This document shows positions 16,355 through 64,000 of a stretch of DNA of 64,000 bases, in pieces. Made by a program: the position numbers and the translations under genes. The first letter of the stretch is position 1. Each line of letters starts with the position of its first letter. Origin of the DNA: Streptococcus mitis (GTDB lineage Bacteria > Bacillota > Bacilli > Lactobacillales > Streptococcaceae); the NCBI RefSeq assembly GCF_901542415.1, contig NZ_CABEHV010000004.1, forward strand, positions 2,029,501 to 2,093,500, read 5' to 3'. The notes under the pieces were generated by a model that was not told the origin of the DNA, did no database searches, and worked only from the letters and a program-made list of their open reading frames with translations.

Positions 16355-19300
16355 ATGGCAAGACGAAAAGATTTTTCTGAATTAACAAGAGTACAAATCC
16401 CAGCAGCTCTGCATTTGATGCGTATGGGCTATACCTATCTTCCTCGCAATGGGAAGGAAATTGAAGAAAGAGATCCAGATACCAATATTCTTGTATCTGT
16501 TTTTAAGGAGCAATTTTTAACATTTAATAACTATTTAACAGATGAAGATTTTGAGAGAGAATTGGCCAATATCAAGCTGGAACTGGATCAAAATGATTTA
16601 GGACGATCTTTCTTTAAAAGGATACAGGGACAAGAAGGTGCTGTTTATATCGATTGGGAAAATCCTGAAGCCAATACCTTCCATCTGGCGCTTGAAGTCA
16701 CTTGTCAAAATGGACAAGATGAATTTCGTCCGGATATAGTTGTGTTTATCAATGGACTTCCTCTTTCTTATATCGAAGTTAAACAACCCAATGCTATCCG
16801 TGATGGAAAGACAGGGATTCAGTCAGAACAGGACAGAACCAGATACCGTTTTGAAAATCGTAAGTTCCGTCGTTTTAACAATATTACCCAGTTGATAGCT
16901 CTATCAGATAATTTACCTTATATCAGTGGCCAAGGTCAACAAAAACAGGGTTCTTACTACGGTTCAAATGCCTATTCAAAAACAAAATTTAATGCTTTCA
17001 AGGAAGAAAGAGAAGTAGATTTTCTGAATTCAATTGTACCTTTAACAGATGAACAAATTGATTTCGTACTTGAGGATGTGAAGCGTTTTGCTCTCAAATC
17101 TCAACCAGAATTTACAACAAACTTACAGCCCGACACTCCCTGTAATACTTTCCTATCATCTTTGTATCAAAAAGAACGCTTGCTTTTCATGCTTCGTTTT
17201 GGGCTAGTCTATGTAGAGGAAGAAAGTAAGGAAGGTCAGATGCAATTGCAGAAGCATGTTATGCGCTATCCGCAATACTTTGCTACAAGAGCTATCGAAG
17301 AAACCATTGCAAAAGGTGTCAAAAAAGGTGTTATCTGGCATACACAGGGCTCAGGTAAGACTGCCCTGGCTTTCTTCAATATCCGCTATCTGACCAATTA
17401 TTTTTCAAAACAGGGGATTGTTCCGCAGTTTTACTTTGTCGTTGATCGCTTGGATTTGGCAGACCAAGCCTTTAAGGAATTTACCAAAAGAGGTCTAAAA
17501 GTTAAGCGCATCAACAATCCTCGAGAACTCAATCAAAAACAAGATGGTTATGATGTCGCTGTTGTCAATATTCAGAAGTTCAAAGATGATTCAGACCTGA
17601 CCGACCGCTCTGGCTATGATCTCAATCGTCAAAATATCTATTTTATCGATGAAGCCCACCGCTCTTATAACGAACTAGGTTCCTACCTGCCAAATCTCTA
17701 TCAGGCAGATATCAATGCGATCAAGATTGCCTTGACTGGGACACCCTTGATTACCTACAAGAAAGATGGTAAGACAAAGGAAAACCATGCGACTACACGT
17801 GATATTTTTGGGGATTATATCCATAAATACTACTACAACCAGTCTATAGATGATGGTTTTACCTTGCGTTTGATGCGAGAAGATATCGAGACGTCCTATA
17901 AAGATAATCTCAGGGCAATTAATGAAGAAATCCAACGTGGTGATTTATCCAAAGAAGATATCTTTGCTCATCCGCACTATGTGGAACCTATGCTTGATTT
18001 TATTCTGGAGGACTTTAACCGTGCGCGTGATCTGGTTTTTGATGATCAGACTATTGGTGGTATGATTGTCTGTGATTCGTCTAAGCAGGCGCGTGAGCTT
18101 GAAAAGCAGTTAGAAGAACGACGAAAGGCTGGAACAACCAACTTGACCTCTGCTCTCATCCTCCATGATGAGGGAGACAAGGAAGAGAAAAAGGAAAAGG
18201 TGGATGCCTATAAGGAAGGCAAGATTGACCTCATTATCGTCTATTCGATGCTCTTGACAGGTTTTGATGCGCCTCGCCTCAAGCGTCTCTATCTAGGTCG
18301 CAAGATTAAGGCTCATAACCTTCTCCAGACTTTGACTCGTGTGAATCGTCCTTACAAGGACTATCTCTTTGGCTATGTAGTTGATTTTGCGGATATTTCT
18401 AAAGAATTTGATAAGACTAATCGTGCATATTTGGAAGAACTCAATCAAGAGTATGATACAACCCTGACTGGGGAAAATGGAGAGGATGTGTTTGGCTCGC
18501 TCTTTGTGCCCGCGGAGGAAATTTCTCAGGAACTAAGCAAGACAGAGCGCATCCTCATGGACTATCCAACCTCTAATCTAGAGTTCTTTTCTCAATCAAT
18601 TGATGATATCAAGGATAGAAAGCAACTAAATGAACTACGAAAAGCCTTAGAATCGGTTAAGCAGTACTATAATATCGCCCGCTTACTTGGTCATGACCAT
18701 TTGCTCAAACAGATTGATATTACTCAGATTGCAACTCTGCTCAATGTCATCTCAAGACGTTTACTGACCTTGTCACTGATAGATAAGCCAGATGACTTTT
18801 CCAGTCGTATTCTTTTAAATCTTGCCATGTCTGAGACCAGTTTTAGTTTTGTCAAGATTGCGGAGGAAGAACTCCGTCTAGCAGCCAATGACCTAGAAGA
18901 TTTGAAGCGTCGAGTTGCTGGAGGCATCATAAAACAGCGTGATGAGAAAGATCCTGAGTGGGTCTCTCTCTACGAAGAATTCCAGCGCATCATGAAAAAA
19001 CATCTGATTCATGGGCAAGAAGGCTACACTATGGAAAACATCAAAGAAATTCAAAAAGAGTACGAAGAGCTCTTTAAGTCAGTGGAAGATTATCATACTC
19101 ATATGAGACGTTTGACGATGAATTTTGGCGGAGATGAAATGGCGGCGCGTTCCTATAAACACGTGACCAACTCGACTATGGTAAGCGAGTACCCAGCAGT
19201 TTATCATGTCATTAAAGATTCTAAAGTTACTCTGGATCACAAAATCGGTCAAAATCGAGGAGTTCTCGATAACGAGGACTTCTTCAAAAAAATGATTCGA

Positions 19301-19417
19301 GAAGTCGCTCGAATTGCAATGAAAACCAACCAATCTGCAAGTAGTTTGACAAGACAGGTTTTTAACGATATCGTAGAGTCGCTATTTGAAGGATATGAAG
19401 AGGAATACCAACACTAA
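16355..19417 (+). CDS. hsdR: Type I restriction endonuclease, R (motor/nuclease) subunit
   Basis: Translocates and cuts DNA lacking the methyl mark, in complex with HsdM and HsdS. 1,020 residues. N-terminal PD-(D/E)xK nuclease: PDIVVF (about 125) and the EVK of YIEVKQ (about 141). SF2 helicase motor: Walker A TQGSGKTA (about 330), DEAH-box FIDEAHRS (about 431), TGTPL (about 459) and motif VI-like TLTRVNRPYK. A helical C-terminal region follows. It appears intact. Stop and hsdM start overlap by one base, so R, M and S are a single operon. Confidence 0.95.
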   Translation: MARRKDFSELTRVQIPAALHLMRMGYTYLPRNGKEIEERDPDTNILVSVFKEQFLTFNNYLTDEDFERELANIKLELDQNDLGRSFFKRIQGQEGAVYIDWENPEANTFHLALEVTCQNGQDEFRPDIVVFINGLPLSYIEVKQPNAIRDGKTGIQSEQDRTRYRFENRKFRRFNNITQLIALSDNLPYISGQGQQKQGSYYGSNAYSKTKFNAFKEEREVDFLNSIVPLTDEQIDFVLEDVKRFALKSQPEFTTNLQPDTPCNTFLSSLYQKERLLFMLRFGLVYVEEESKEGQMQLQKHVMRYPQYFATRAIEETIAKGVKKGVIWHTQGSGKTALAFFNIRYLTNYFSKQGIVPQFYFVVDRLDLADQAFKEFTKRGLKVKRINNPRELNQKQDGYDVAVVNIQKFKDDSDLTDRSGYDLNRQNIYFIDEAHRSYNELGSYLPNLYQADINAIKIALTGTPLITYKKDGKTKENHATTRDIFGDYIHKYYYNQSIDDGFTLRLMREDIETSYKDNLRAINEEIQRGDLSKEDIFAHPHYVEPMLDFILEDFNRARDLVFDDQTIGGMIVCDSSKQARELEKQLEERRKAGTTNLTSALILHDEGDKEEKKEKVDAYKEGKIDLIIVYSMLLTGFDAPRLKRLYLGRKIKAHNLLQTLTRVNRPYKDYLFGYVVDFADISKEFDKTNRAYLEELNQEYDTTLTGENGEDVFGSLFVPAEEISQELSKTERILMDYPTSNLEFFSQSIDDIKDRKQLNELRKALESVKQYYNIARLLGHDHLLKQIDITQIATLLNVISRRLLTLSLIDKPDDFSSRILLNLAMSETSFSFVKIAEEELRLAANDLEDLKRRVAGGIIKQRDEKDPEWVSLYEEFQRIMKKHLIHGQEGYTMENIKEIQKEYEELFKSVEDYHTHMRRLTMNFGGDEMAARSYKHVTNSTMVSEYPAVYHVIKDSKVTLDHKIGQNRGVLDNEDFFKKMIREVARIAMKTNQSASSLTRQVFNDIVESLFEGYEEEYQH

Positions 19418-21021
19418 TGAATGAAACATACAAAGTCCAAGTCCAAGACTTGGTAGATGATTTGAAAGCAGTCTTTACCCATGCGGGCCTAGGAGGGGAA
19501 GCGGGTGAGTACAAACTCCTCACCCAGTCCTTCCTCTACAAGTTTTTAAATGATAAGTTTTTATATCAAGCCAAGGTGCTGGATGAATCCAACACTTATG
19601 AAAACTTGTTGGCAATGAGTGAAGATGACTATGACTGGCTCTTGGAGGATATCGGTACAAGTACGGCTTGGCTCAAGCCAGACCAGTTGATCGAAACGCT
19701 TCACCGTCAGCAAAATGAAGCGACTTTCTACGAGAGTTTTGAAAATACTCTTAATCAGATAGCTATTGATAATAACGATATTTTCTCTGTTCATACTGAT
19801 GGAGATACGGCTATTCGTCTATTTGATGAGCGTCTGATTACCGACACAATATCAGATAGCAGTAAGCGTAACGAAGTGGCAAAAGCCATCATCAATCTCC
19901 TTGCACGCGTCAAGTTTGATGAGACCATCTTTTCACAAGGCTTCGACTTTTTCTCTACTCTCTTTGAGTACATGATCAAGGACTACAACAAAGACGGTGG
20001 TGGCAAGTATGCCGAGTACTACACACCTCACTCTGTGGCTAAGATTATCGCTGATATTCTTGTGGGAAATGACCAGCCATCAAACGTGCGGATTTATGAC
20101 CCGTCTGCTGGGTCTGGAACCTTGCTGATGAACCTGGCTAGTCGTATCGGTGTAGATAAGACCACTGTCTATAGTCAGGATATCTCGCAAAAATCATCTA
20201 ACCTTCTTCGTCTCAACCTCATCTTGAATGGCCTCCAACACTCCATTCATAATATCGTACAGGGAAATACCATTATCGCTAATCGTCATCCTGAAAAGAT
20301 GGACTATATCGTGTCCAACCCCCCTTTCAAGCTGGACTTTTCAGAGTGGCGTGACCGAGTAGAAAGTTTGCCAGAAGCCAGTGATCGTTTCTTTGCAGGT
20401 GTGCCAAAGGTTCCAGCTAAGTCTAAGGACAAGATGGCTATCTATGAGCTCTTTGTTCAGCATATCATCTACTCCTTGAAGCCAGACGGTCAAGCAGCCG
20501 TAGTCCTACCGACAGGCTTTATCACGGCCCAGTCAGGGATTGATAAGACCATCCGTCAACACTTGGTGGATCATCAAATGCTGGCAGGTGTCGTTTCCAT
20601 GCCTTCTAATATCTTTGCGACGACAGGTACCAATGTCTCCATCCTCTTTATTGATAAGAAAAATAAGGGCGATGTCGTCCTTATCGATGCCTCAAACCTC
20701 GGAACCAAGGTCAAGGAAGGCAAGAACCAAAAGACCGTGCTCTCTCCTGAGGAAGAGCAGAAAATCGTCGAGACCTTTATCAATAAAGAAGCCGTCGAGG
20801 ACTTTTCTGTCACCGTCTCTTATGAGGACATCAAGGAGAAAAACTACTCTCTCAGCGCAGGTCAACACTTTGACATTAAGATAGATTATGTAGATATCAC
20901 AGCAGAAGAGTTTGAAGCTAAGGTGACTGCTTTTCAAGATAAACTTTCAGACTTCTTCAAGCAATCGCATGTGTTGGAGCAGGAGATTGGAGAGCAGATG
21001 AAGGGGTTGAAATATGAGTGA
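19417..21021 (+). CDS. hsdM: Type I DNA methyltransferase, M subunit
   Basis: Adenine-N6 methyltransferase subunit of the type I complex. 534 residues. N-terminal helical HsdM domain (about 1-150), then the SAM-binding fold with DPSAGSGTLL (about 228-237) and catalytic motif IV SNPPF (about 300-304). Overlaps hsdR by one base and hsdS by 8 bases. With hsdS it would methylate the host recognition site and protect it from HsdR. Confidence 0.95.
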   Translation: MNETYKVQVQDLVDDLKAVFTHAGLGGEAGEYKLLTQSFLYKFLNDKFLYQAKVLDESNTYENLLAMSEDDYDWLLEDIGTSTAWLKPDQLIETLHRQQNEATFYESFENTLNQIAIDNNDIFSVHTDGDTAIRLFDERLITDTISDSSKRNEVAKAIINLLARVKFDETIFSQGFDFFSTLFEYMIKDYNKDGGGKYAEYYTPHSVAKIIADILVGNDQPSNVRIYDPSAGSGTLLMNLASRIGVDKTTVYSQDISQKSSNLLRLNLILNGLQHSIHNIVQGNTIIANRHPEKMDYIVSNPPFKLDFSEWRDRVESLPEASDRFFAGVPKVPAKSKDKMAIYELFVQHIIYSLKPDGQAAVVLPTGFITAQSGIDKTIRQHLVDHQMLAGVVSMPSNIFATTGTNVSILFIDKKNKGDVVLIDASNLGTKVKEGKNQKTVLSPEEEQKIVETFINKEAVEDFSVTVSYEDIKEKNYSLSAGQHFDIKIDYVDITAEEFEAKVTAFQDKLSDFFKQSHVLEQEIGEQMKGLKYE

Positions 21022-22219
21022 GTGGAAAAGATATAAATTATCTGACCTTTATGAGATGAGTTCGGGAATTTCTTCAACAAAAGAGCAAGCGGGACACGGT
21101 TCACCATTTCTTTCATTCTCTGTTGTATTTAATAATTATTTTTTGCCAGATAATCTAATTGATTTAATGGATACGACAGATGGTGATAAACAAAAATACT
21201 CAATAAATGAGGGTGATATTTTTTTAACACGTACTAGTGAAACAGTTGATGAATTAGCTATGTCTTCAGTTGCTTTGAAGGATTATCCTGAAGCTAGCTT
21301 TAGTGGATTTCTTAAAAGACTTAGACCTGTTGATAAAAGAATTGTTTATCCTAAATTCATGGCTTTTTATTTAAGAAGTCCTTTGTTTAGAAGAACAATA
21401 ATAAATAATACTGTAATGACCCTAAGAGCTAGTTTCAATGAAGTAATGTTTTCATATCTTGAAATTATGCTTCCAGATTTTGATACTCAAAAGAAAATTG
21501 GTGATTTCCTTTATTCGTTAGAAAAGAAAAAGCAAACCAACAACCAAATCAACCAAGAGTTGGAAGCCATGGCTAAGACCCTCTATGACTACTGGTTTGT
21601 CCAGTTTGATTTCCCAGACCAGAATGGCAACCCCTACAAATCATCAGGCGGAAAGATGGTCTATAACCCAGAACTCAAACGCGAAATCCCAGAGGGGTGG
21701 GGAGTGGAGAGTGTTGGTAACTTATTAGATAAAGTTACTAAAGCGGAAAAAATTGAAAATAATTCTATTGAATTTATAGGAAAAATGCCTGTTATCGATC
21801 AGAGTCAAAAATATATTGCAGGTTTTACGAATAATGAAAATGGCTTAATCCAACCTCAAAAAGGACATGTAATATTTGGGGATCACACTAGGGTAGTCAA
21901 ATATATAAATTTTGATTATGCCAGAGGAGCTGATGGAACTCAAGTCTTAATTTCAAAGAATGAGCATATTTCAAATGTATTACTTTATCACATGATTAAA
22001 GATTTTGATTTGTCAAATTATGGGTATGCTAGACATTTCAAATTTCTAAAAGAGAAAATTGTTATAGTTCCTGATAAAGAAGTATCGTCAAAATTTGAAA
22101 CACAGGCAAATGTTATTTATGAAAAAATTAAGAACAATATTTTTGAAAACCAAGAACTCACCCAACTTCGCGATTGGCTCTTACCAATGCTGATGAATGG
22201 ACAGGTGAAGGTGGAGTGA
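21014..22219 (+). CDS. hsdS: Type I restriction-modification specificity subunit
   Basis: Sets the DNA sequence recognised by the type I enzyme. 401 residues in the usual order: target-recognition domain 1 (about 1-150), conserved helical spacer (about 155-205, containing NQINQELEAMAKTLYDYWF), target-recognition domain 2 (about 230-365) and a final conserved helix (NQELTQLRDWLLPMLMNG). The recognition domains are visibly more AT-rich than the spacer and C-terminal helix, the pattern expected when such domains are exchanged between strains. No second hsdS fragment or recombinase gene lies next to it, so there is no sign of a phase-variable shufflon in this window. Confidence 0.93.
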   Translation: MSEWKRYKLSDLYEMSSGISSTKEQAGHGSPFLSFSVVFNNYFLPDNLIDLMDTTDGDKQKYSINEGDIFLTRTSETVDELAMSSVALKDYPEASFSGFLKRLRPVDKRIVYPKFMAFYLRSPLFRRTIINNTVMTLRASFNEVMFSYLEIMLPDFDTQKKIGDFLYSLEKKKQTNNQINQELEAMAKTLYDYWFVQFDFPDQNGNPYKSSGGKMVYNPELKREIPEGWGVESVGNLLDKVTKAEKIENNSIEFIGKMPVIDQSQKYIAGFTNNENGLIQPQKGHVIFGDHTRVVKYINFDYARGADGTQVLISKNEHISNVLLYHMIKDFDLSNYGYARHFKFLKEKIVIVPDKEVSSKFETQANVIYEKIKNNIFENQELTQLRDWLLPMLMNGQVKVE

Positions 22220-22272
22220 GAGGGAGTTTAAAAACTTTTATATAAAATTTCTATCAAGGAGGTGTGTGAATA

Positions 22273-22887
22273 TTGTCTTGTGTAATTGGTACGGTATTTA
22301 GAAATTTCGCAATTATTTCAGGAGATACGCGTCTTAGTAATGATTCAGGTGAAACTGTAAGTGAAAAATACTCTAAAGTGTTCAAGGTAAATCAAAATGT
22401 GTTGGTAGGTTTTACTGGTTCAGGTAATGCTGTAGATGTTTTAAATAAAAATGGAATTTTTGACAAAGATGACTGTCCAAGCGCTGAAGATTTTCTAGAA
22501 TTTTTATGGCTTTTATTAGGTAACAGAGTGGTAAATGAACCAAACCATTGTAATATATTGGTTTTGGGAAAAAGTAAAATGAATTATGGTTTTGGTGGAA
22601 ACTTTCATATGTCAGAAGATGATGTTCAAAATCAGCTACATTTAACAGATCACAGAAACGTATGGGCTCCTATTATGACACCTCCAAATGTTGATTACGA
22701 GTATTATCAAGATTTAGTTAATTCAAAAGTACAATTTATTATTGCTGAACAGATAATTTCTCCTGTATTTAGTAGAGGGATTGCGATTAAGAAAATCAAA
22801 GAAGTACATAGAGAAATTATTCTTGAAATTTCAAAAAAGGATAGATCAGTTAATAGTAATATTGAACAACATGTGATTAAATGGTGA
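22273..22887 (+). CDS. Proteasome/HslV-fold Ntn-hydrolase, uncharacterised
   Basis: 204 residues. The N-terminus lines up by eye with proteasome beta and HslV subunits: after Met removal it reads SCVIGTVFRNFAIISGDTR, with Ser1 at the Thr1 nucleophile position, Asp at position 17 and Arg at 19 as in GDxR/ADSR. KYSKVFKV has a Lys at position 34 (Lys33 in proteasomes, one residue shifted) and VGFTGSGNA fits the Gly47 loop. The rest is less recognisable. Start is TTG 22273, 10 bases after AAGGAGG; an in-frame TGA just upstream excludes a longer form. No HslU or other unfoldase gene is in the window. It overlaps or abuts the next regulator gene. Substrate and function are unknown; protease activity is inferred only. 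Confidence 0.68.
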   Translation: MSCVIGTVFRNFAIISGDTRLSNDSGETVSEKYSKVFKVNQNVLVGFTGSGNAVDVLNKNGIFDKDDCPSAEDFLEFLWLLLGNRVVNEPNHCNILVLGKSKMNYGFGGNFHMSEDDVQNQLHLTDHRNVWAPIMTPPNVDYEYYQDLVNSKVQFIIAEQIISPVFSRGIAIKKIKEVHREIILEISKKDRSVNSNIEQHVIKW

Positions 22888-22889
22888 CT

Positions 22890-23162
22890 ATGAGTAAGAA
22901 AATTGTTGAATCCAAAGACCTGATTGCTTTTCATCCAGGTCAGTATGTTGAGGAGTTGATTGAAGATTATAACCTAACGCAAAAGGAATTTGCGGAGCGT
23001 TTGGGAGTTTCTGAAATGAAGCTCGGTAAATTAGTGAATGGTGAGGAATCAATTAGTAATGATATTGCTCGGAAGTTAGCAAAGGTTACTAATATCTCGA
23101 TAATAACTTGGCTCAATCTTCAGAATGCTTACGATGTAAAAGTGGCTGAGTTCATAGAGTAA
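22890..23162 (+). CDS. HigA/VapI-type XRE-family antitoxin-like regulator
   Basis: About 90 residues with the HigA-family pattern: AFHPGQYVEELIEDYNLTQ, a helix-turn-helix (KEFAERLGVSEMKLGKLVNG), then SISNDIARKLAKVTNIS and the terminal TWLNLQNAYD typical of HigA antitoxins. Two starts are possible: ATG 22881 (overlaps the Ntn-hydrolase gene by 7 bases) or ATG 22890 (two bases after it); I list the shorter. No RelE/HigB-type toxin precedes it. The gene in the toxin position is the proteasome-like Ntn-hydrolase. Confidence 0.75.
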   Translation: MSKKIVESKDLIAFHPGQYVEELIEDYNLTQKEFAERLGVSEMKLGKLVNGEESISNDIARKLAKVTNISIITWLNLQNAYDVKVAEFIE

Positions 23163-23165
23163 TCG

Positions 23166-23174
23166 TGGTATAAT
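23166..23174 (+). promoter_or_regulatory. Extended -10 promoter giving a possibly leaderless DUF1722 transcript
   Basis: TGGTATAAT is a full extended -10. A transcript starting 7-8 bases downstream would begin at or next to ATG 23182, and no ribosome site is visible before that ATG. Confidence 0.5.
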
Positions 23175-23181
23175 GACAATT

Positions 23182-23586
23182 ATGAATAATAACAACCAAC
23201 GTGCCCTTTGCCAACAACTCTGGGCTAGAAACAAATACCTCGTTTTGAGTCATTCCAGCAATATTTACAATGAGATTCGTCAGTATCTCAAGAATGAAGA
23301 GGTGGAGGTGAGTCAGGTTCAGGAGATGATTGACCGTGCCTGCCAGATTCCAGAACACAGGGGTCAGGTTTGCAATGCCTTTCAGCATATTTGGGGCTAT
23401 TTTAAAAAGAAAGCGACAGATGCTGAGCGCAAGGACTACATGCTCTTGCTTGATCGCTACCGCTTTGGTCAGGCTTCTAAGGAAGACTTGATCACTAAGA
23501 TTCGAGACTTGCTTGATTGCTATCCAAATACCTACTTGCAACATTCGACTTTACTGAAAGGAGATTGTCATGAGACTTTGGCATGA
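23182..23586 (+). CDS. DUF1722 (YbgA-like) protein
   Basis: 134 residues from ATG 23182 (ATG 23173, overlapping the -10 box, would add 3). It matches the YbgA/DUF1722 pattern: LWARNKYLVLSHSSNIYNEI at the start, then HIWGYFKKKATDAERKDYM, LLDRYRFGQ and the final CYPNTYLQHSTLL. The biochemical function of the family is unknown; in other bacteria it is often encoded beside or fused to DNA photolyase genes, as I recall. Here it overlaps a T4 endonuclease V-like gene by 17 bases, another UV-damage repair link. Confidence 0.75.
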   Translation: MNNNNQRALCQQLWARNKYLVLSHSSNIYNEIRQYLKNEEVEVSQVQEMIDRACQIPEHRGQVCNAFQHIWGYFKKKATDAERKDYMLLLDRYRFGQASKEDLITKIRDLLDCYPNTYLQHSTLLKGDCHETLA

Positions 23587-23935
23587 GGCTTTGATTTCAC
23601 AACTTCCCCGTCCTCAACTCTTGGGGCAGCATCGAGAGTGTTGCGCCCTGCGTGGCAATGGCTGGGGCAGAAAGCATGCGACGGTGGACTATGTCTTTAC
23701 CCACTCGCCCTATCGTCTCTATGCCTATCATCGCTTGATCATGGAGGAAATGGCTGGTCGTGGCTACAATGTCAGTCCAGAGTGGTTGGACAAGAACTAC
23801 CGAGGTAAGACCTTCCCTCCTTATCAAGACTTAGCAGAGGAAAAGCTGAAAAGTCCTATCTATAGCGAGCATGATACTACCTACTATGAGGAGTGTCTGG
23901 CAAATCTTCGAGAGAAGGGGATTGAGCTGGAATAA
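23570..23935 (+). CDS. Pyrimidine-dimer DNA glycosylase-like protein (T4 endonuclease V fold)
   Basis: 121 residues. The N-terminal helix LISQLPRPQLLGQHRE aligns position by position with T4 endonuclease V (LVSELADQHLMAEYRE): Arg22 and catalytic Glu23 fall at the same numbers. The T4 nucleophile is the amino group of Thr2; here residue 2 is Arg (MRLWH), so activity might use another N-terminal residue or be lost. A conserved central HSPYRLYAYHRLIMEEMAGRG follows. ATG 23570 has AAAGGAG upstream. It overlaps the DUF1722 gene, so the two are coupled. Confidence 0.75.
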   Translation: MRLWHEALISQLPRPQLLGQHRECCALRGNGWGRKHATVDYVFTHSPYRLYAYHRLIMEEMAGRGYNVSPEWLDKNYRGKTFPPYQDLAEEKLKSPIYSEHDTTYYEECLANLREKGIELE

Positions 23936-24068: not shown

Positions 24069-24091
24069 TTTAATTAGAAAGAGGTTGCTTG

Positions 24092-24457
24092 GTGCATACG
24101 ATTTACTTCTATAAGGACAAAAATGGAAACGAGCCAGTTTTGGATTATATGAGAGAATTGGCTAGTCAGAAAAGTAAGGATAGTCGCATCAAACTCAATA
24201 AACTAAATGACTATATCGAGTTGCTTAGTCAGCATGGGACGAGAGCTGGGGAACCCTATATGAAACACTTGGAAGATGAGATATGGGAACTAAGACCTTT
24301 GAGAAATCGAATTTTATTTATAGCGTGGCTTGATGGTAGTTTTGTTCTTTTACATCATTTTGTCAAAAAGACTCAGAAAACTCCTAGAAGAGAAATTGAA
24401 AAAGCCAAGCGTGAATTGAAGGACTTAAAAGAAAGAGGGTTAAGTGATGAAGAATAG
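24092..24457 (+). CDS. HigB/RelE-superfamily toxin (phage Gp49-like)
   Basis: About 121 residues with the Gp49-like HigB pattern: [19 protein letters not shown] at the start, [20 protein letters not shown] in the middle (the basic RNA-cleaving face of RelE-type toxins) and [22 protein letters not shown] near the end. Such toxins cut mRNA on the ribosome. I choose GTG 24092 (7 bases after AAAGAGG) over TTG 24089. Toxin-first order with an overlapping HTH antitoxin is typical of HigBA. Confidence 0.85.
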
Positions 24458-24740
24458 TGCTATTGGAAGTAACTGGAAGGATGTCCGGTCAGAACTCTTT
24501 ACCAAGGAGGAAATCCTTGAAAGTGATATGCGAGTGGCTATCATGAGTGAGTTGATTGAAGCCAGACATGAGCAAGGAATCAGCCAGAAAAAGCTAGAAG
24601 AACTCAGTGGAGTGAGTCAACCTGTCATAGCTAGGATGGAAACAGGAAAGACTAGCCCCCAGTTGGATACAGTCTTGAAAGTTTTAGCCAGTTTAGGAAA
24701 GACACTAGCAGTCATCCCCCTCGAACAGAGAAAGAGTTGA
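24447..24740 (+). CDS. HigA-type antitoxin, XRE helix-turn-helix
   Basis: 97 residues. A helix-turn-helix is clear at about 42-75 ([19 protein letters not shown], then [14 protein letters not shown] and [16 protein letters not shown]). It overlaps the toxin gene by 11 bases; the start may be GTG 24444 or ATG 24447, the latter better spaced from AGAGGG. It should neutralise the upstream toxin and repress the pair's promoter. Confidence 0.85.
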
Positions 24741-49366: not shown

Positions 49367-52300
49367 ATGAAAGGCAAGCAACAAGATTATAGAGTATAGA
49401 AATATATACGATACGGAATTCGTAAATATAGTTTTGGTGCAGCGTCGGTAGCTATTGCGGCTGGACTTATGTTCCTAGGAAATGGGGCTGTATCAGCAAC
49501 TGAAGTACAGGGAACTGAAGTGGCAGTAGCATCAACGACATCAAAAGTACAAGATGGGGTTCCGTCATCTGACAAAGGAAAATCTGAGTCAGAGACTGCA
49601 TCTACCAACGCAACAGTAGAAAGCAAATCAGAAGCTATTAAGGTTGCAGATAAAGTAGCTTTGACAAATAAAGTAGCAGCTTTGGAAGCGAAATTGTCTA
49701 CTGCTAAGAAAGCGGACGCAGCAGCTCAAACAGCAGTTAAAGAAGCATTGGTTTCAGCTAAAGCAATTCTAGCGAAGGCAGATGCTAGTCAAGCAGATGT
49801 TGATGCAGAAGTAGCTAAAATTGCTGATTTGACTGCTGTTTTGACAGAGTCAGACGCAACTGCTCAAAAAGCTGAAGAGGCAAAAAAAGCAGAGGAAGCT
49901 AAAAAAGCTGAAACAGCAAAAACAGCTACCCCTATCACTGAGGCTAAAAAAGTTTTGGACCAAGTGACGTCAGAAGCGGAAGTAACTAATGTCCTTGCAG
50001 AAGAAGCTGTTCGTAAGAATCATGTTGAGGGTGAAAATAAAGAAGCAATCGAAGCGGCGGTTGCAAAAAACAAAGAGATTATTGCAGAAGCTAAAAAGAC
50101 CTTGGACGTAAAAGACTTGACTGTCAAAGAAATTGATGCTCAACTTTCACGCTTAAACGAGTCTATCCTTGCGGTATACAATGACCTTAAAAAAGCAGGA
50201 ATCGGTCGTGATGGGAAGCTTGCTGTAGCCTTAGCACCTCAAGATTTCTATGCTGAAGCAACTGCTAATTCAAACGGTACACGTACCACTCATTTTAATC
50301 CTGTTACTGCAGCAACTGCTACAGGTATGGATATTTATAAGTACAATCCTGACGGAACAGCGACTCGAGATGGTTCTAATCAGTCAGGAGAGTTGAATAG
50401 AGTAACTACTGTAACAGGAGGGACTGCTGAAGGTTTAGAAGTTGTTGTCTATTCTAATCAACGTAATGGTTCAGAAATTAACCCTGCTAATGGTTTGACA
50501 TCTGCTGAAGGTGGTAAAATAGGTCACAACAACAAGGGACGTATGGATTATCCCCTTACTCCAGAAATGGCTAAAAAACTAGCTAAAGAAGCAGAACTTT
50601 GGAGAGGTAAACCTCGTCCAAGTGGTAGCAATAATTTTTCAGGTGGTGCCAATGTATTCTCAAATGGAGGTCCATACGAATTCCTTGCAACAGAAATCTA
50701 TAAATTGGGATATGAGCAAGGAATTGATCGTGTCTACATTCCAGGTATCAAGTCTCGATTTGGAGTGACAGATGCAGCGGCTAAAAAAGGTTGGTCCTTT
50801 ACAGGTATTGATGGTTCAGGACTTGCTGCTACACCTTACAATCTACCTAATGGTCTTGTGTATGATGCTACAAACGATGTTGTCGAAGGGATTGTTACAA
50901 GTAATATTGAAAATGGGGTACAAGACTTCAAACTTAAAGCAATCTTTACAAACAGCAAAACAGGTGCAGTAGTAACAACTCAATTTGCAAATATGCGTTT
51001 GGGTTGGGTAGGTTGGATCGATACAACTCCGCCAACTATCGCAACAGATAATGCAGTCTACGAACGTACAGTTGGCCAAGACATCGATATTGATATCAAG
51101 TATCAAGACGCATCAGGTGCTCGTACAATGCGCGGTCGAAGTGCGAACGTATCTTATACTAAAGCTGATGGGACAACAACATTGATTCGTCAACGATATG
51201 AAACTGCCGTAACTGGTATTGCTGGTGTCAATGTAAATAAACAAAGTCAAGTTCTTGATGAAACAGCAACAACAATTCCAGGTGTTAGCTATCAGATGGA
51301 TCCAAATAAAAGAGCGGAGTCTGTTACTATTGATGGTCAAGCTTCATATAATTCTCCTGCTAAATTGTCTGGTGCCTTGACCGAAGCAGGTGTGTTTTAT
51401 GTATCAACTTTTGCTAAAGATTACAATAGTACTGATGGTTCACGTGAACAGTGGATTCAATCTGGTCAGGAAACACAAGGAAATATTACAGTTGTCGTTA
51501 AACCAAAAGTAGAAGCTTTGAATATTGAAACCTACTCAGAAACTGTTCCTGTGACTATTTCTAAAGGTGCAACAAACGCTGTAGTTACTATGCCAGATGG
51601 AACGAAGACTGTCCTTCAAAATCAAAATGGAAGTTGGGTTGTAGTTGCATCAGGAGAAGATGTAGATGGCAATGCAGTAACAACAACCAATAGGGCTGCA
51701 GCAGTAGGCACAAATTTGGGTACAGTAGGTGGAAAAATTAATGTTCCAGTTACACAAGCTGCAACTGCAAAAGCTGGAGTGGATAACATCAAGGTTGAAG
51801 CAATCACTGAAAATATCAAGGCTACTTTCCTACGTAATAAGGTAGTGCTGAAAGATGTGGACAAAACTACTCATGAAGCTACGTTGAACTCTAAAACTGG
51901 TCATTGGGAGCTTCCAGCAGAATATTCTACTATTCAGACTACGAATGCAGACGGAACATATACATTAACTAAACGTCAAGTCTATACTGAGACTCAATTA
52001 GATGGTTCTCAAAACTTCTATATCTATACATACAAACGTACATTTGAAACAGATGGAACAATTAAGAGTGTTGATGCGGTAACTCGTCATAAAACAACAG
52101 TTGCAAGTAAAAATGGAACATCTGCAGATGGAATGTCTGTTACAGTAACCTACAATAAAGTTACAGATGCATGGACTGCTTCTGATGGTTCTACTGTGAT
52201 AGCTACTAAACTTGGAGATTCATCATGGGACATCAAGACTTCATCAGGATTTGGTGGTGAAGTTCGTGCTCGCAAAGCAACAAGCACAGATGTTGCGACT

Positions 52301-55300
52301 ATCATTAACACAAAACCAACTGCAAAATCAACAAGCTATGAATCAACTAAGGGAACAACTGTTGACCTTCGTAATGCGGCACAAGCTGCAGTTACGATTG
52401 CAGATAAAGAAGATACTGCTCATAGTAAAACGACTTACATTACTCGTTTGACAGTAACATCACCATCTGGAGCTCAAAAAGTATATGATACAAAGACAGA
52501 TGCTGCAGCTTACACATTAGCTAGTAACTATGTTTTATCAGAAGTGGGTGTGTATAAAGTTGTTGTAGATGTGATTGATAGTAACGGAAATGTTGTTACG
52601 GCTACTTTGGATGGTACAGATTCAGGTACAGATTCAGGTGCAGGTTCATCTGTAGCTCAAACAACTTACACCATTACGGTTAAGGATACGATTGTAGGTC
52701 ACAATGTTACATCATCTGATATCCAAGGAGCTACTCAAACAGGAACACCAACCTTTACTTCTGTAGGTGATGGTTCAACCATCTCACCAAGTGCAACATC
52801 ACTAGCTAAGTTGGTTGCCACTGATGGTAGTCTAGTTGAGACTTTAAAAGTTGCAAATGAGGGAACTTATACAATTAACCCAGCAACAGGTGTTGTAACC
52901 TTCGAACCACTTCCAACATTCACAGGACCAGCAACTCCAGTAACTGTCCAACTAACTGCTATTTTAGGTAGAGATGCTAACAATGCTAATATTACTGCAA
53001 CTGCGACAGCTACATATACACCAACAGTAGTTCCAGTAAAACCAACAGCAGTAGCATCTCAAACAACTGGACCTCAAGGGAAAGCCCAAACTTCTGCTAT
53101 TAAGTTTGACGCAGCAGATACAGATGATACAACTGTAAACTTTGCTAAAGGAACAGTTTCTATTGATGCAAATACAACAAAATCTGTTGATCTTAATACA
53201 GCATCAGTAACTCTTCTTAATGAAAACGGTGATGCTGTACCGTCTGTAACAGTTGCAAATGAGGGAACTTATACACTGGATAAAGCGACAAATGTTATTA
53301 CTTTCCAACCAGTCGCAACATTCACAGGAACTGTTACAAAACCAGTTAATGTACGTATTGCAGATGCAAATAGTACTACTGTAACAACTACTTACACTCC
53401 AACTGTTACAGATGTAACTATGACAGCTGAAAATGCAACATCTGAAGACGTTCAAGGTAAAACACAAACTGGAACACCAGAATTTGAAACATCAGATCCA
53501 TCAGTAACGATTGCAACACGTCAGTTGATTGATCCATCAACGATGCAACCAACTACTAGTGTTACAATTGCAAATGAAGGAACATACACAATTGATCCAA
53601 CAACAGGTGTTGTAACCTTCGTACCAGTCCCAACATTTACTAGAGAAGGAACAGGAGTAACTGTTCAAGCAACAGACTCAAATGGTGAGACAGCAACAGC
53701 TACTTATAAACCAACTGTAACACCAATCACGATTACTGGTGAAGATGTAACATCTAAGAATATTCAAGGTGAACAGCAGTCAGAAACACCACTATTCTCA
53801 TCATCAGATGAGAGTGCTCCAGTATCAAATTACAAACTTGTAGATCCAGCTACTGGAAATCCAACGACTGAACCTTCAGTGACTGTTGAAAATGTTGGTA
53901 CATACACAATTGATTCAACAACAGGTGTAGTAACATTCCAACCAGTTGCAACTTATAAAGGAACACCAACACCAGTAAAAGTTCAAGCATCAGCTACTAT
54001 TACTAATGAAAAAGGTGAATCAACAGTCATCACAGGTACAGCTACCTATACTCCAACAGTAGTTCCTGTAGCCCCAACAGCTAAAGAATCAGCGACAGTT
54101 GGTAAACAAGGTCAAGCGCAAACGTCACAAATTGTTTTTGACACCCCTGATACAGATGCTACAACATTGAACTTCGCTAAAGGAGAAACATCTGAAGTAT
54201 TAGGTGAAGATGGTCAACCAAAATCAGTTGCTCTTAATAAGAGTACTTTGACACTTCTTGATGCGAACGGAAATTCTGTAACTACAGTTACGGTTGATGG
54301 TGAAGGAACTTACACTCTTGATAAAACAACTAATGCCATTACATTCCAACCAACTGAAGAATTCACAGGCAAAGCTACACCAGTGCGTGTGCAAATTGCA
54401 GATGTCAACGGTACTACTGTAACAACTAATTACACTCCAACTGTTGTTGCTGAAGATGGAACTGTCATTGTTGAGTACAAGGATGAAGAAGGTAACGTTA
54501 TCTCTCCTTCAACAACTCCAGTAAACAACGAAAAAGTAACAACTCCATTTACAACTGAACCAAAAGAAATTACTGGTTACACTCTTGTTAAAGTGGCAAC
54601 AACAAATGGTACGGTTGATGAAGCTACTAAGAATGTTTCAGGTAAGGTTACAAATGATACAACTACTGTAACATATACTTATAGAAAGAATGTTCAAACA
54701 GCAACTATTTCTTACTATGATGTGACAACTGGTGCAGAAGTTGCGATTGATTCAGCTAAAGTACCAGCAGCATCTGTTGAGACAGTAGAAGGTGTTTATA
54801 ACGGTGCTATCGACTTTACTAATCGTGAAAAAGCAATTGCAGCTCTTGAAAAAGCTGGCTATACGTTAGTAGAAGACAGTTTCGTTGCAGCAACGACAGC
54901 TGATAAACTGTTTGATAACGACACAGCGGTAACTCAAAACTTCAAGGTAACAGTTAAACAACGTGTGGAACCAGTAACTCCAAATGATGAGAAACCTGTT
55001 CCAGGTCAACCAGTTAATCCAGAAGATCCAAACTCACCAGTATGGCCAAATACTGCAGAAAATCTTGAGTTAACTAAGACAGTTACTCGTACAATCAAGT
55101 ACCGCTACAACGATGAGAATGGTAAAGAAGTAACAGCTGATGAAGTTCAAACAGTAACCTTCACACGTAGCGCAAGCGTTAACTTGGTAACAGGAAATGT
55201 GGAATACACTGACTGGTCAGCAGCACAAACGCTTGAGGAAGTAGTTTCTCCAGAAGTAGCTAATTATACTTACGATAAGGAAACTGTTCCAAGTCTTGAG

Positions 55301-57517
55301 GTAACAAACGAGTCAACTGATAGTACAGTATACGTTATCTATAAACCAGTAGCGCCAACTACAACACCTGCTACATCAACTGATATCCAAGGTAAGCCAC
55401 AGACAGGTACTCCAACATATAAACATGCTGATGGAACTGAGTTGAAACCAACAACAGATAATCCAGCTAAGTTCGTTGGAACTGAGGAAACAACTATTCC
55501 AGCTACTAAGGATGGTAAGACAGTTGGTACATATACAATCGATCCAACTGGTACAGTAACCTTCACACCAAATAAAGACTTCGTTGGCACACCAGATCCA
55601 GCTAAAGTAGTTGTAACAGATCCTACAAATGGTACAACTGTTGAGTCAAGTTACACTCCAACTGTAACCCCAGTTACACCAACAGGTGTGGATACAGGTT
55701 CTACAGGTCCTAAGAACACTCCTCAATCTGGTACACCAACATTTGTACCTGGTCATAAAGATGTACCAATGGACAATACTGTTCCTGCTAAATTTGAAGA
55801 TGGTACAACAAGTAAAACAGTTCCAAACGAAGGAACATATACTGTTGATCCAACAGGTAAGGTAACCTTCACACCAAATAAAGATTTCGTTGGAACTGCA
55901 ACAGGAGTAACTATTGTACGTAAAGACACTAACGGAACAGAGGTAAAAGCTAAGTATACACCAACTGTTTATGAAGTGAAGTCTGATACACAAGTTGCAA
56001 CTGTAACTTACAAAGATACTAAGGGAACAATTCTTGGTGAAGTGGATATCCTTCAAGGTGATTCTGGTTCTGAAATGAACTACTCTACTGCAGAACGTAT
56101 CAACGCACTGAAAAAACTTGGCTACGAACTTGTATCTGATGAGTTTACAAAAGCTGATGGCAGCAAGCAATCATTTGATAATGATACAAATGCTGTTCAA
56201 AAATTTGTAGTCACTGTTCAACCACGCCTTGTTCCAGTTATTCCAAGTGATGTGACACCAGTTCCAGGTCAACCAATTAATCCAGAGGATCCAAACTCAC
56301 CAGTATGGCCTGAAAGCGTTAAGGAATTGACAACTTCAGAAGAAGTAACTCGTACAATTACTTATGTTGATGAAGATGGTAAAGAGGTTACTACTTCTGT
56401 GACTTCATCAGTTAAATTCACTCGTGATGCTAAGGTGAACTTAGTGACAGGTGAAGTTACTTACGGCGAATGGAAAGCAGCTACAACTGATGTTCTTTCT
56501 GGTAACAAACTTCCACTTGTTAAAGGTTATATTGCAGTAAGTGGAGATATTGAAGCATCTACTAAGGATCAAACTGTTAAGGCTGAAGACAAAGATATCG
56601 TTCAAAAAGTTGTCTATAAGAAACTTGGAGCCTTGATTCCAAACGTGCCAGGACAAACAAATCCTCCACGTATTGATTATCCAAATGATCCAAATGGTGA
56701 TCCAACTAAACCAGGTGTACCAACGGAAGATATTGTAATTCCTTATGTTCCAGGTTACATTCCAAGAGATAAAGATGGAAATCCATTGAAACCAGTTGAT
56801 CCAGAAGATCCAACTAAAGGTTATGTGCCACCAACATTACCAACTGATCCAAGTCAAGATACACCAATCAACTATACTAAGATTACAACGTCTTATGTGA
56901 CAGTTGATCCAAATGGTAAAGAAATCTCTATTCCAGATTATCCAACAGTTGAGGGTAACCAACCTAAGAAAGATATCCCAGGATACGAGTTTGTTAAGAC
57001 TACAACTGATAAAGATGGTAATGTAACTCACGTTTACCGTAAAGTAGTTAAGACAACTACATCATTCGTAGATGGAAATGGTAACCCAGTTTCACCAAAT
57101 GAAGAAGGTAACCAACCTAAGAAAGATATCCCAGGATACGAGTTTGTTAAGACTACAACTGATAAAGATGGTAATGTAACTCACGTTTACCGTAAAGTAG
57201 TTAAGACAACTACATCATTCGTAGACGGAAATGGTAACCCAGTTTCACCAAATGAAGAAGGTAACCAACCTAAGAAAGATATCCCAGGATACGAGTTTGT
57301 TAAGACTACAACTGATAAAGATGGTAATGTAAGTCACGTTTACCGTAAAGTTGTTCCTGCTGCTCCAAAACAAGAACAATCTAAACCAGCTCCAGCTAAA
57401 CCAGCTAAGGAATTGCCAAATACTGGTACAGAAGATCACTCTAGCCTAGCAGCTCTTGGACTTCTTGGAGTATTGAGTGGATTTGGTCTTGTAGCACGCA
57501 AGAAAAAAGAAGACTAA
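49367..57517 (+). CDS. CshA-type LPXTG fibrillar adhesin; in-frame amber codon in the signal peptide
   Basis: Giant cell-wall protein, about 2,716 codons. ATG 49367 has a strong site (AAAAGGAGG), but codon 11 is TAG (49397-49399); the YSIRK-type signal RKYSFGAASVAIAAGLMFLG follows in frame. ATG 49469 could start 2,682 residues, but without the signal peptide. Parts: Ala/Lys/Glu-rich helical region (to about codon 270), non-repetitive CshA-like domain with FANMRLGWVGWIDTTPP, seven CshA-type beta repeats (GTYTIDPTTGVVTF pattern; five at 52680-54440, two at 55345-55975), MucBP/Mub-type modules between and after them, three 51-residue repeats, LPNTG (57413-57427), a hydrophobic helix and RKKKED. 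It mediates adhesion by family. As written it would not be exported, unless the stop is suppressed or is a sequence error. Confidence 0.85.
52680..55980 (+). repeat. CshA-type repeats of the adhesin
   Basis: Seven units of about 100-125 residues, each with a Q(T/S)xTPxF-like start (DIQGKPQTGTPTY type), a central GTYTIDPTTGVVTFxP and a closing TYTPTV. Units 1-5 are consecutive (about 52680-54440); units 6-7 (about 55345-55975) lie after mucin-binding-type modules. They diverge clearly from each other, so this is an old expansion. Confidence 0.8.
56954..57350 (+). repeat. 153-bp tandem repeats near the adhesin C-terminus
   Basis: GGTAACCAACCTAAGAAAGA recurs at 56954, 57107 and 57260, exactly 153 bp (51 codons) apart. 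Each unit encodes GNQPKKDIPGYEFVKTTTDK, then DGNVTHVYRKVV and a TTTSFVDGNGNPVSPN segment, a MucBP-like module. The units are almost identical at the DNA level, so copy number probably varies between strains. Confidence 0.9.

Positions 57518-58300: not shown

Positions 58301-64000
<5,700 letters not shown>

Follow-up and report, generated by a model that had tools for sequence, protein, structure and literature searches.

A proteasome-like gene between hsdS and a HigA-type remnant in a streptococcal type I restriction operon, a candidate cassette of an exchangeable defence slot

The window, the whole stretch of 64,000 nt of Streptococcus mitis DNA that was analysed, comes from a genome of 2.16 Mb that is 99.98% complete with 4.11% contamination. 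It contains a type I restriction operon whose specificity gene is followed by a gene for a predicted proteasome-like Ntn hydrolase, an orphan HigA-type HTH gene and two resident flanking genes. The features of the locus, all on the plus strand, are as follows.

16355..19417, plus strand: hsdR, type I restriction subunit of 1020 aa, with HSDR_N, SWI2_SNF2, ResIII and T1R_D3-like domains
19417..21021, plus strand: hsdM, type I methyltransferase of 534 aa (N6_Mtase 3.1e-66; PADLOC MTase_I 1.1e-261)
21014..22219, plus strand: hsdS, specificity subunit of 401 aa (Methylase_S 2.4e-18)
22177-22219, plus strand: conserved end of hsdS, which bounds the cassette slot on its left side (tail comparison across 30 loci)
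22220..22272, plus strand: gap of 53 nt from the hsdS stop (22219) to the start of the Ntn gene, with the Shine-Dalgarno sequence AAGGAGG at 22256-22262
22273..22887, plus strand: predicted proteasome-like Ntn hydrolase of 204 aa, TTG start (PF00227 above cut-off; S1, D17, K34 and G45/G48 with Met removed)
22890..23162, plus strand: orphan HigA-type HTH protein of 90 aa (TIGR02607 67.8 bits); an ATG at 22881 is also possible
23173..23586, plus strand: DUF1722 protein, resident flank of the slot (PF08349 7.4e-25), found downstream in many of the loci
23570..23935, plus strand: pyrimidine dimer glycosylase-like protein, resident flank (PF03013 1.3e-23; TIGR02328 202.7 bits)

The sequence confirms that the Ntn gene encodes 204 residues, starts 53 bases after hsdS and is adjoined by the HTH gene, as the initial annotation had it. 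Its GC content of 30.6% is lower than that of the window (40.9%) but is not special when set beside the 33.1% of hsdS. A consensus scan of the plus strand found no terminator-like site between hsdS and the Ntn gene, and the two are likely to be co-transcribed. Further downstream, positions 24089-24740 hold a second toxin-antitoxin-like pair, consisting of a Gp49/DUF891 family gene (PF05973 1.8e-19) and then an HTH gene that scores 51.5 bits with TIGR03070, below the cut-off of 71.65, and is present near some of the other slot loci described below. Two very large ORFs with surface-protein-like N-termini, which we take to carry a YSIRK-type signal, occupy 49469-57517 and 58371-64000, the second running past the end of the window.

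The N-terminus of the 204-residue protein had been aligned with HslV and the proteasome beta subunit, a resemblance that profile comparisons bear out. Pfam PF00227 (Proteasome) matches residues 3-54 with 25.8 bits (E 9.6e-6) against a cut-off of 22.4. The match to a proteasome beta subunit in the PDB improves from 5.8e-6 with the single sequence to 7.1e-8 with a nine-sequence profile, a profile with which the HslV chains in the PDB score 0.014 or worse, and hhalign of the window family against eight HslV proteins gives a probability of 94% over 56 columns. This last alignment spans residues 4-59 and leaves the C-terminal ~140 residues unmatched; taken together, the matches to named families cover about the first 60 residues only, the region of the nucleophile, Asp17, Lys33 and the oxyanion loop. 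The phage family phrog_36497 (PHROG, function unknown) matches residues 11-202 at E 4.3e-6. In relatives of the protein, PF00227 scores 25.8-32.5 bits for the Streptococcus copies and 23.8 for the copy of a Roseburia phage, falls below the cut-off for those of genomes G875 (13.6) and G488 (19.8), and gives no match to a copy on E. faecalis plasmids. By family membership, the predicted product of ORF 22273-22887 is proteasome-like. The AlphaFold2 model, built from six sequences, is unusable (mean pLDDT 31, pTM 0.22), so the Ntn fold is assigned from sequence; fold, catalysis, substrate and oligomeric state of the window protein are what we infer. PADLOC gave no match to the protein at E up to 0.01, and an identity with BptA (NCBIfam) was rejected, as 13.9 bits against a cut-off of 300 amount to chance.

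The Ntn protein begins M-S-C-V from its TTG start codon, and the proposal that Ser becomes residue 1 after removal of Met is upheld by the spacing of the translation signals. In 7/7 Streptococcus copies a Shine-Dalgarno sequence, with one base changed in loci L003 and L004, lies 9-10 nt before the conserved TTG, whereas the ATG that L005, L015 and L016 have two codons before the TTG stands just 3 nt from the Shine-Dalgarno sequence. As this spacing favours the TTG over the earlier ATG, the serine is probably next to the initiator Met, and the mature protein should begin with Ser. With Met removed, S1, D17, K34 (aligned to K33 of HslV) and a G45-x-x-G48 loop are present. An alignment of nine sequences (five from Streptococcus and those of the E. 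faecalis plasmid, G875 of the same order, the Roseburia phage and G488 of the same class), whose identities to the window protein run from 88 to 23%, has eight invariant columns that include S2, D18 and K35 in Met-on numbering. The chance of the three named sites all falling among 8 invariant columns of 204 is ~4e-5, the rows not being independent. The Ser/Asp/Lys triad, for which a check in homologs had been proposed, is thus invariant in all nine; G46 is invariant in another nine-row alignment (A1) and ceases to be so once the G488 sequence is included. Among the other residues first pointed out, Asp17, Lys34 and the Gly loop stand, while Arg19 is not universal, being replaced by Gln in the E. 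faecalis plasmid copy. Pairwise dN/dS of the Ntn gene in five copies is 0.16-0.35, and the gene is under purifying selection.

Identity of the protein with HslV itself was rejected: the residue in position 1 is Ser and not Thr, the HslV family of NCBIfam gives no match even at E up to 1, and TIGR00390 (HslU) finds nothing over its cut-off in the source genome, where other ATPases match below it. ORF 22273-22887 is the one match to PF00227 in that genome. These data agree with the initial suggestion of a stand-alone protein, and the Ntn protein is proposed from its sequence to work without HslU.

Within Streptococcus the Ntn gene is carried by 7/284 genomes (E up to 0.001), and the copies amount to about five lineages since they include two near-identical pairs (L003/L004 and L015/L016). 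Among the loci are those of Streptococcus sp. Marseille-Q0941 (L002), S. parasanguinis (L003), Streptococcus sp. HMSC078D09 (L004) and S. cristatus (L005). Linkage to hsd genes is seen in 7/7 copies, in the form of hsdRMS in four, an hsdR stub in two and a scar of the hsdS tail in one. The scar, which precedes the Ntn gene in S. cristatus, comprises 42 nt of the hsdS end that are 93% identical to L098 and L106, and no hsd gene was found in the 16.6 kb covered at this locus. Downstream of the S. cristatus gene come the opening 63 nt of the HTH gene (90% identical) and then the region upstream of metE; its ORF and catalytic residues are intact. In L015 and L016 an hsdR stub lies upstream and a DEAD/ResIII helicase-like gene is found where hsdRMS would be (ResIII 1.1e-20 and PADLOC PbeA-like 8.6e-15 in L015). 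This replacement gene encodes 881 aa, the stub before the Ntn gene 81 aa, and the regions concerned are L015:7694-10715 and L016:8268-11289. In L003 and L004 a 353-aa gene sits between the Ntn and HTH genes; the type is common to L105 and L003 and has no family match.

Among more distant relatives of the Ntn gene, one occurs in seven plasmid records of E. faecalis at 25.7% identity, where the neighbours carry no defence names in the annotation, one upstream gene is without a Pfam match and no HigA is annotated beside the copy. Another, at 23.4% identity, is annotated as an HslV-like protease in Roseburia phage Jekyll, where it adjoins an Mrr-type endonuclease gene near an integrase, and an Xre-type HTH gene lies further upstream with two genes between. 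The order in this phage (L012:4111-6555) is HTH, M78 peptidase, TM2-Mrr endonuclease, HslV-like Ntn and integrase, possibly a phage-borne cargo block with similar parts. Surveys with alignment A1 covered 398 class-level, 295 order-level and 398 phylum-level genomes in overlapping draws, with thresholds of 1e-3, 1e-3 and 1e-4, and matched 5, 36 and 13 genomes, respectively. Read by eye, the weak matches, leaving out six order-level ones without a locus, are HslV-like ORFs beside an HslU-like ORF except in L018 and L019; outside Streptococcus the only survey matches that depart from this pattern are that of G875 (L019, E 7.6e-45) and the weak one of G488 (L018). No HigA was seen by eye at G875, where the Ntn relative lies a few kb before what may, to judge by eye, be a type VII secretion cargo region of the LXG kind (L141:9356-18207). 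Profile scans of viral contigs returned one relative, L045, of the Roseburia-phage type. By tblastn the G488 protein found nothing in phages, and the Roseburia phage protein found itself alone in phages and nothing in plasmids; phrog_36497 matched only the window copy across 229 same-phylum genomes.

The HTH gene downstream scores 67.8 bits as HigA (TIGR02607, cut-off 47.7). As listed, its ORF (22881-23162) overlaps the Ntn ORF by 7 nt; since its relatives begin M(S/T)NKIVE, the more likely start is the ATG at 22890, 2 nt past the Ntn stop and without a Shine-Dalgarno sequence of its own. The same arrangement is present in L002, L015 and L016, and in these 4/7 copies the 2-nt spacing without a separate Shine-Dalgarno sequence makes it probable that translation of the HTH is coupled to that of the Ntn gene. 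Of the arguments left for a functional link between the two genes, this coupling is the strongest. The HTH is found in 50/284 Streptococcus genomes (E up to 1e-12), comprising that of the window, five other genomes with the Ntn gene and 44 without it, and all 44 of the latter loci were compared by BLAST with reference proteins. A HigB-like gene precedes the HTH in 35/44, and in 34/35 of these HigB-bearing loci the frame that begins with the HTH is ~360-370 aa long, the remaining locus, L108, having a shorter HTH protein. The sole HigA-type protein scanned, that of L106, matches PADLOC PD-Lambda-2_B at 3.2e-26 and Peptidase_M78 at 2.7e-7. The window HTH stands without HigB, and the C-terminal portion seen in its HigA relatives of about 361 aa is missing. 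HigB is also missing in 9/44 loci, and a scar of the higB end, with 28-39 of 40 nt matched, stands before the HTH in 8/9; the 40-nt stretch scores 14 in L105 and 14-18 in six Ntn loci, in a test that misses diverged copies, since L108 scores 17 and L138-L140 score 26 although they bear HigB. Part of the stretch is the Shine-Dalgarno sequence of the HTH gene and was possibly kept for its own sake, an explanation that suits the more upstream matched positions less well.

Upstream of higB, alignment of 29 loci (among L106, L107 and L110-L140) revealed a terminator-like hairpin, a TATAAT and a perfect palindrome, AATTAAATTACC...GGTAATTTAATT, which is a probable HigA operator; a search of the window with this region gave no significant match (best E 0.29). 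The ratio of mean dN to mean dS is 0.22 for the short HTHs (55 pairs) and 0.034 for the long ones, and since purifying selection continues to act on the short forms, some function may be retained. That 44 genomes have the HTH but no Ntn gene, together with the higB scars, indicates that the HTH is resident at the locus and not a dedicated partner of the Ntn gene, and on sequence grounds it is best read as the remnant of a resident HigBA module. In the neighbourhood survey that had been proposed, hsd linkage or its scars recur in 7/7 copies, while the HTH does not emerge as a dedicated partner.

Comparison of the loci places a slot between the hsdS 3' tail and HigBA or the HTH remnant. Of the 30 loci compared, 28 agree with this tail at 31-41 of its 43 nt, and L015 and L016 reach only 25. 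In 24/44 genomes without the Ntn gene, one to four ORFs separate HigBA or the HTH from an upstream HsdS that is 32-67% identical to that of the window. Each cargo family was scanned in at least one member, the remaining loci being assigned by BLAST, and known or candidate defence-family cargo was found in 14/24 of these alternative slots. Kiwa (KwaB+KwaA) fills the slot in five loci (L106, L119, L120, L121 and L127; KwaA 3.3e-79 and KwaB 1.9e-173, scanned in L106), PDC-M39A+B in three (L097, L107 and L125; 2.3e-11 and 7.9e-6, respectively, scanned in L097) and GmrSD/NsnA in three (L110, L128 and L130; NsnA 7e-54, scanned in all three). L116 has an AAA_13 gene in two ORFs (PDC-S06 6.3e-142), the second of which also matches PrrC at 1.2e-8. 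L098 and L099 carry an AAA ATPase with an AbiLi/AriA-like score (AbiLi 7.6e-28, scanned in L098) and a second gene without a family, which by eye we guess to be TOPRIM, no search match pointing there. As ordinary proteins also score in PADLOC (2/10 of those tested from the window at E up to 0.01, a phosphatase-like protein at 3.6e-16 and an ABC-type ATPase at 3.5e-28), the AAA ATPase pair should be discounted; specificity is higher for Kiwa, in which both components match, and for NsnA and PDC-S06.

The cargo of the other 10/24 slots is without assignment. Five belong to a type termed c355+c462 (~355 and 462 aa; L103, L104, L113, L115 and L126), four to a type termed c277+cTM137 (277 and 137 aa; L102, L118, L129 and L134) and one is a single small ORF (L124). 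The members of the two recurring types that were scanned gave no convincing Pfam or PADLOC match, and both types are candidates for unknown defence systems. The defence-family counts cover the 24 slot loci and leave out the 20 of the 44 that are differently arranged, from which the 353-aa gene was scanned. In these 20, a second-type hsdM-like gene lies directly before HigB in 12 and directly before the HTH in L101, the AAA pair lies between a second-type hsdM-like gene and the HTH in L100, and L105, L108, L109 and L138-L140 have arrangements that differ again from those of the 24 slot loci.

Because relatives hold recognised defence genes in the same slot, the Ntn gene is most likely a defence cassette. 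Slightly better than even, in our judgement, is the full reading, in which the gene forms a single-gene cassette, occupies an exchangeable defence slot within a streptococcal type I restriction operon and serves as an anti-phage effector or as guardian of the restriction system; its anti-phage role we infer by analogy with the alternative cargo. The initial annotation had hinted that the gene was part of a defence cassette, which, with defence-family cargo in 14/24 slots of relatives, is probably correct, and the hint is strengthened and given a concrete anatomy. Cassettes would probably be exchanged by homologous recombination in the shared borders formed by the hsdS tail and HigBA or the HTH. 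Methionine aminopeptidase would remove Met1 to expose Ser1, and the proteasome-like hydrolase, co-expressed with hsdRMS, would act without HslU or an AAA+ unfoldase, cleaving protein or another amide bond. It may cut a phage or host protein during infection, or respond to inhibition of the restriction system. Against the full reading, a defence assignment extends to some of the cassettes and not to all, 10/24 alternative cargos having none, and the Ntn gene is still present at the S. cristatus, L015 and L016 loci, from which hsdRMS is absent.

The features that link the protein to HslV and to its HTH neighbour invite two other explanations. That it is a divergent HslV working with an unfoldase encoded elsewhere in the cell (ClpX, ClpC) would fit the hhalign probability of 94% over 56 columns and the ATPases that match TIGR00390 below cut-off, but it is very improbable in view of Ser in place of Thr, a length of 204 rather than about 175-180 aa, the missing NCBIfam HslV match, the lack of an HslU over cut-off in the genome and the HslU-like ORF that, by eye, adjoins the HslV ORFs surveyed. 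It is also very unlikely that the Ntn protein is a toxin that is neutralised or repressed by the HTH. The gene does sit in the toxin position, as was initially noted, in that HigB occupies the same place in relatives, and both the probable translational coupling in the window, L002, L015 and L016 and the purifying selection on the short HTHs (0.22) speak for such a pair. The proposal of a toxin under control of the HTH is nevertheless not supported: 44 genomes carry the HTH and no Ntn gene, a higB scar stands before 8/9 orphan HTHs, and in S. cristatus an intact Ntn ORF is followed by a 63-nt HTH stub. The 353-aa gene that separates the two in L003 and L004, and the lack of a significant match in the window to the palindrome region upstream of higB (E 0.29), point the same way. 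Strict linkage of the Ntn and HTH genes is not found, and a toxin-antitoxin pair was rejected as the main explanation.

Two further explanations start from the hsd genes and from the distribution of the Ntn gene. The protein might be a housekeeping protease of the restriction system, guarding against self-cutting by the removal of HsdR or other subunits, a role for which hsdS linkage and likely co-transcription would be suited and for which there is precedent, control of HsdR by ClpXP being established in E. coli, where it removes the HsdR of type IA/IB enzymes (PMC12707154, in the text available to us). Such a role is unlikely, however, as 24 other loci with the hsdS of the same operon carry other cargo and no Ntn gene, the gene outlives hsdRMS in the S. 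cristatus, L015 and L016 loci, and none of its immediate neighbours in the window is an unfoldase gene. Doubtful, too, is the view that it is a mobile passenger derived from a phage or plasmid, serving some purpose other than defence and carried along in a recombination-prone locus. Its rarity (7/284), the occurrence of relatives in seven plasmid records of E. faecalis and in the Roseburia phage, and the PHROG matches are all consistent with a passenger, whereas the conservation of reading frame and catalytic residues, and a slot filled by recognised or candidate defence genes in 14/24 genomes, speak against one.

It is quite possible, if somewhat short of an even chance, that the Ntn gene represents a new anti-phage type, a stand-alone Ser-nucleophile proteasome-like effector or a guardian of type I RM that streptococci trade as a one-gene cassette through the slot that also receives Kiwa, GmrSD-like and PrrC-like genes. 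Among the papers listed in searches of open-licence PMC text, none linked a proteasome-like protein to anti-phage defence, by which measure the Ntn protein, if the reading is true, would be the first member of the proteasome-like family with a defence role, and would offer a first hint at what the uncharacterised proteasome homologs do. As the gene is small and its exchangeable slot is shared with recognised anti-phage systems, its function is directly testable. The slot also points to the uncharacterised cassettes in 10 loci, with two recurring families, as defence candidates.

Among known systems, the cargo of the window differs from PrrC of EcoprrI, PARIS and DarTG2 in being a proteasome-like hydrolase; we know of no such hydrolase in any of these three systems. 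What they share with the window, as far as the consulted portions of the source papers go, is an accessory defence gene that an RM operon contains or adjoins, accompanied in one of them by a small regulator: PrrC is found in EcoprrI and PARIS acts as an RM guardian (PMC12707154), and the type I RM island that houses DarTG2 also includes the regulator RptR (PMC12255303). An RM-bearing island of S. thermophilus counts Kiwa among its defence genes, according to the available text of PMC11514479. The HigBA/PD-lambda-2 system, in the excerpts of PMC9519451, resembles the resident HigB-like gene and HTH-M78 fusion of L106; the window, with two genes compared, differs in having neither HigB nor the C-terminal part, the HTH alone being left. 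HslV (ClpQ) aligns with residues 4-59 and has in common Asp17, Lys33 and the Gly45-type loop, the window protein being set apart by Ser1 instead of Thr1, by the lack of an HslU over cut-off and by its C-terminal ~140 residues, which are unmatched. The closest comparison is with the proteasome-like homologs of Fuchs, Alva and Lupas 2021 (PMC8665760), a paper that described 22 new families; the homologs include the Firmicute clusters FC1-FC5 and the phage-borne PPH and AAH. According to the portions of that paper available to us, these homologs have a beta-like N-terminal part with Ser/Thr1, Asp17, Lys33 and an oxyanion Gly, no propeptide, no co-occurring AAA+ partner, and members in Firmicutes and phages, all in likeness to the window protein. 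The same portions report no genomic context that suggests a function for these homologs, and it is in this respect that the window locus differs, its place in the restriction operon providing a context that is suggestive.
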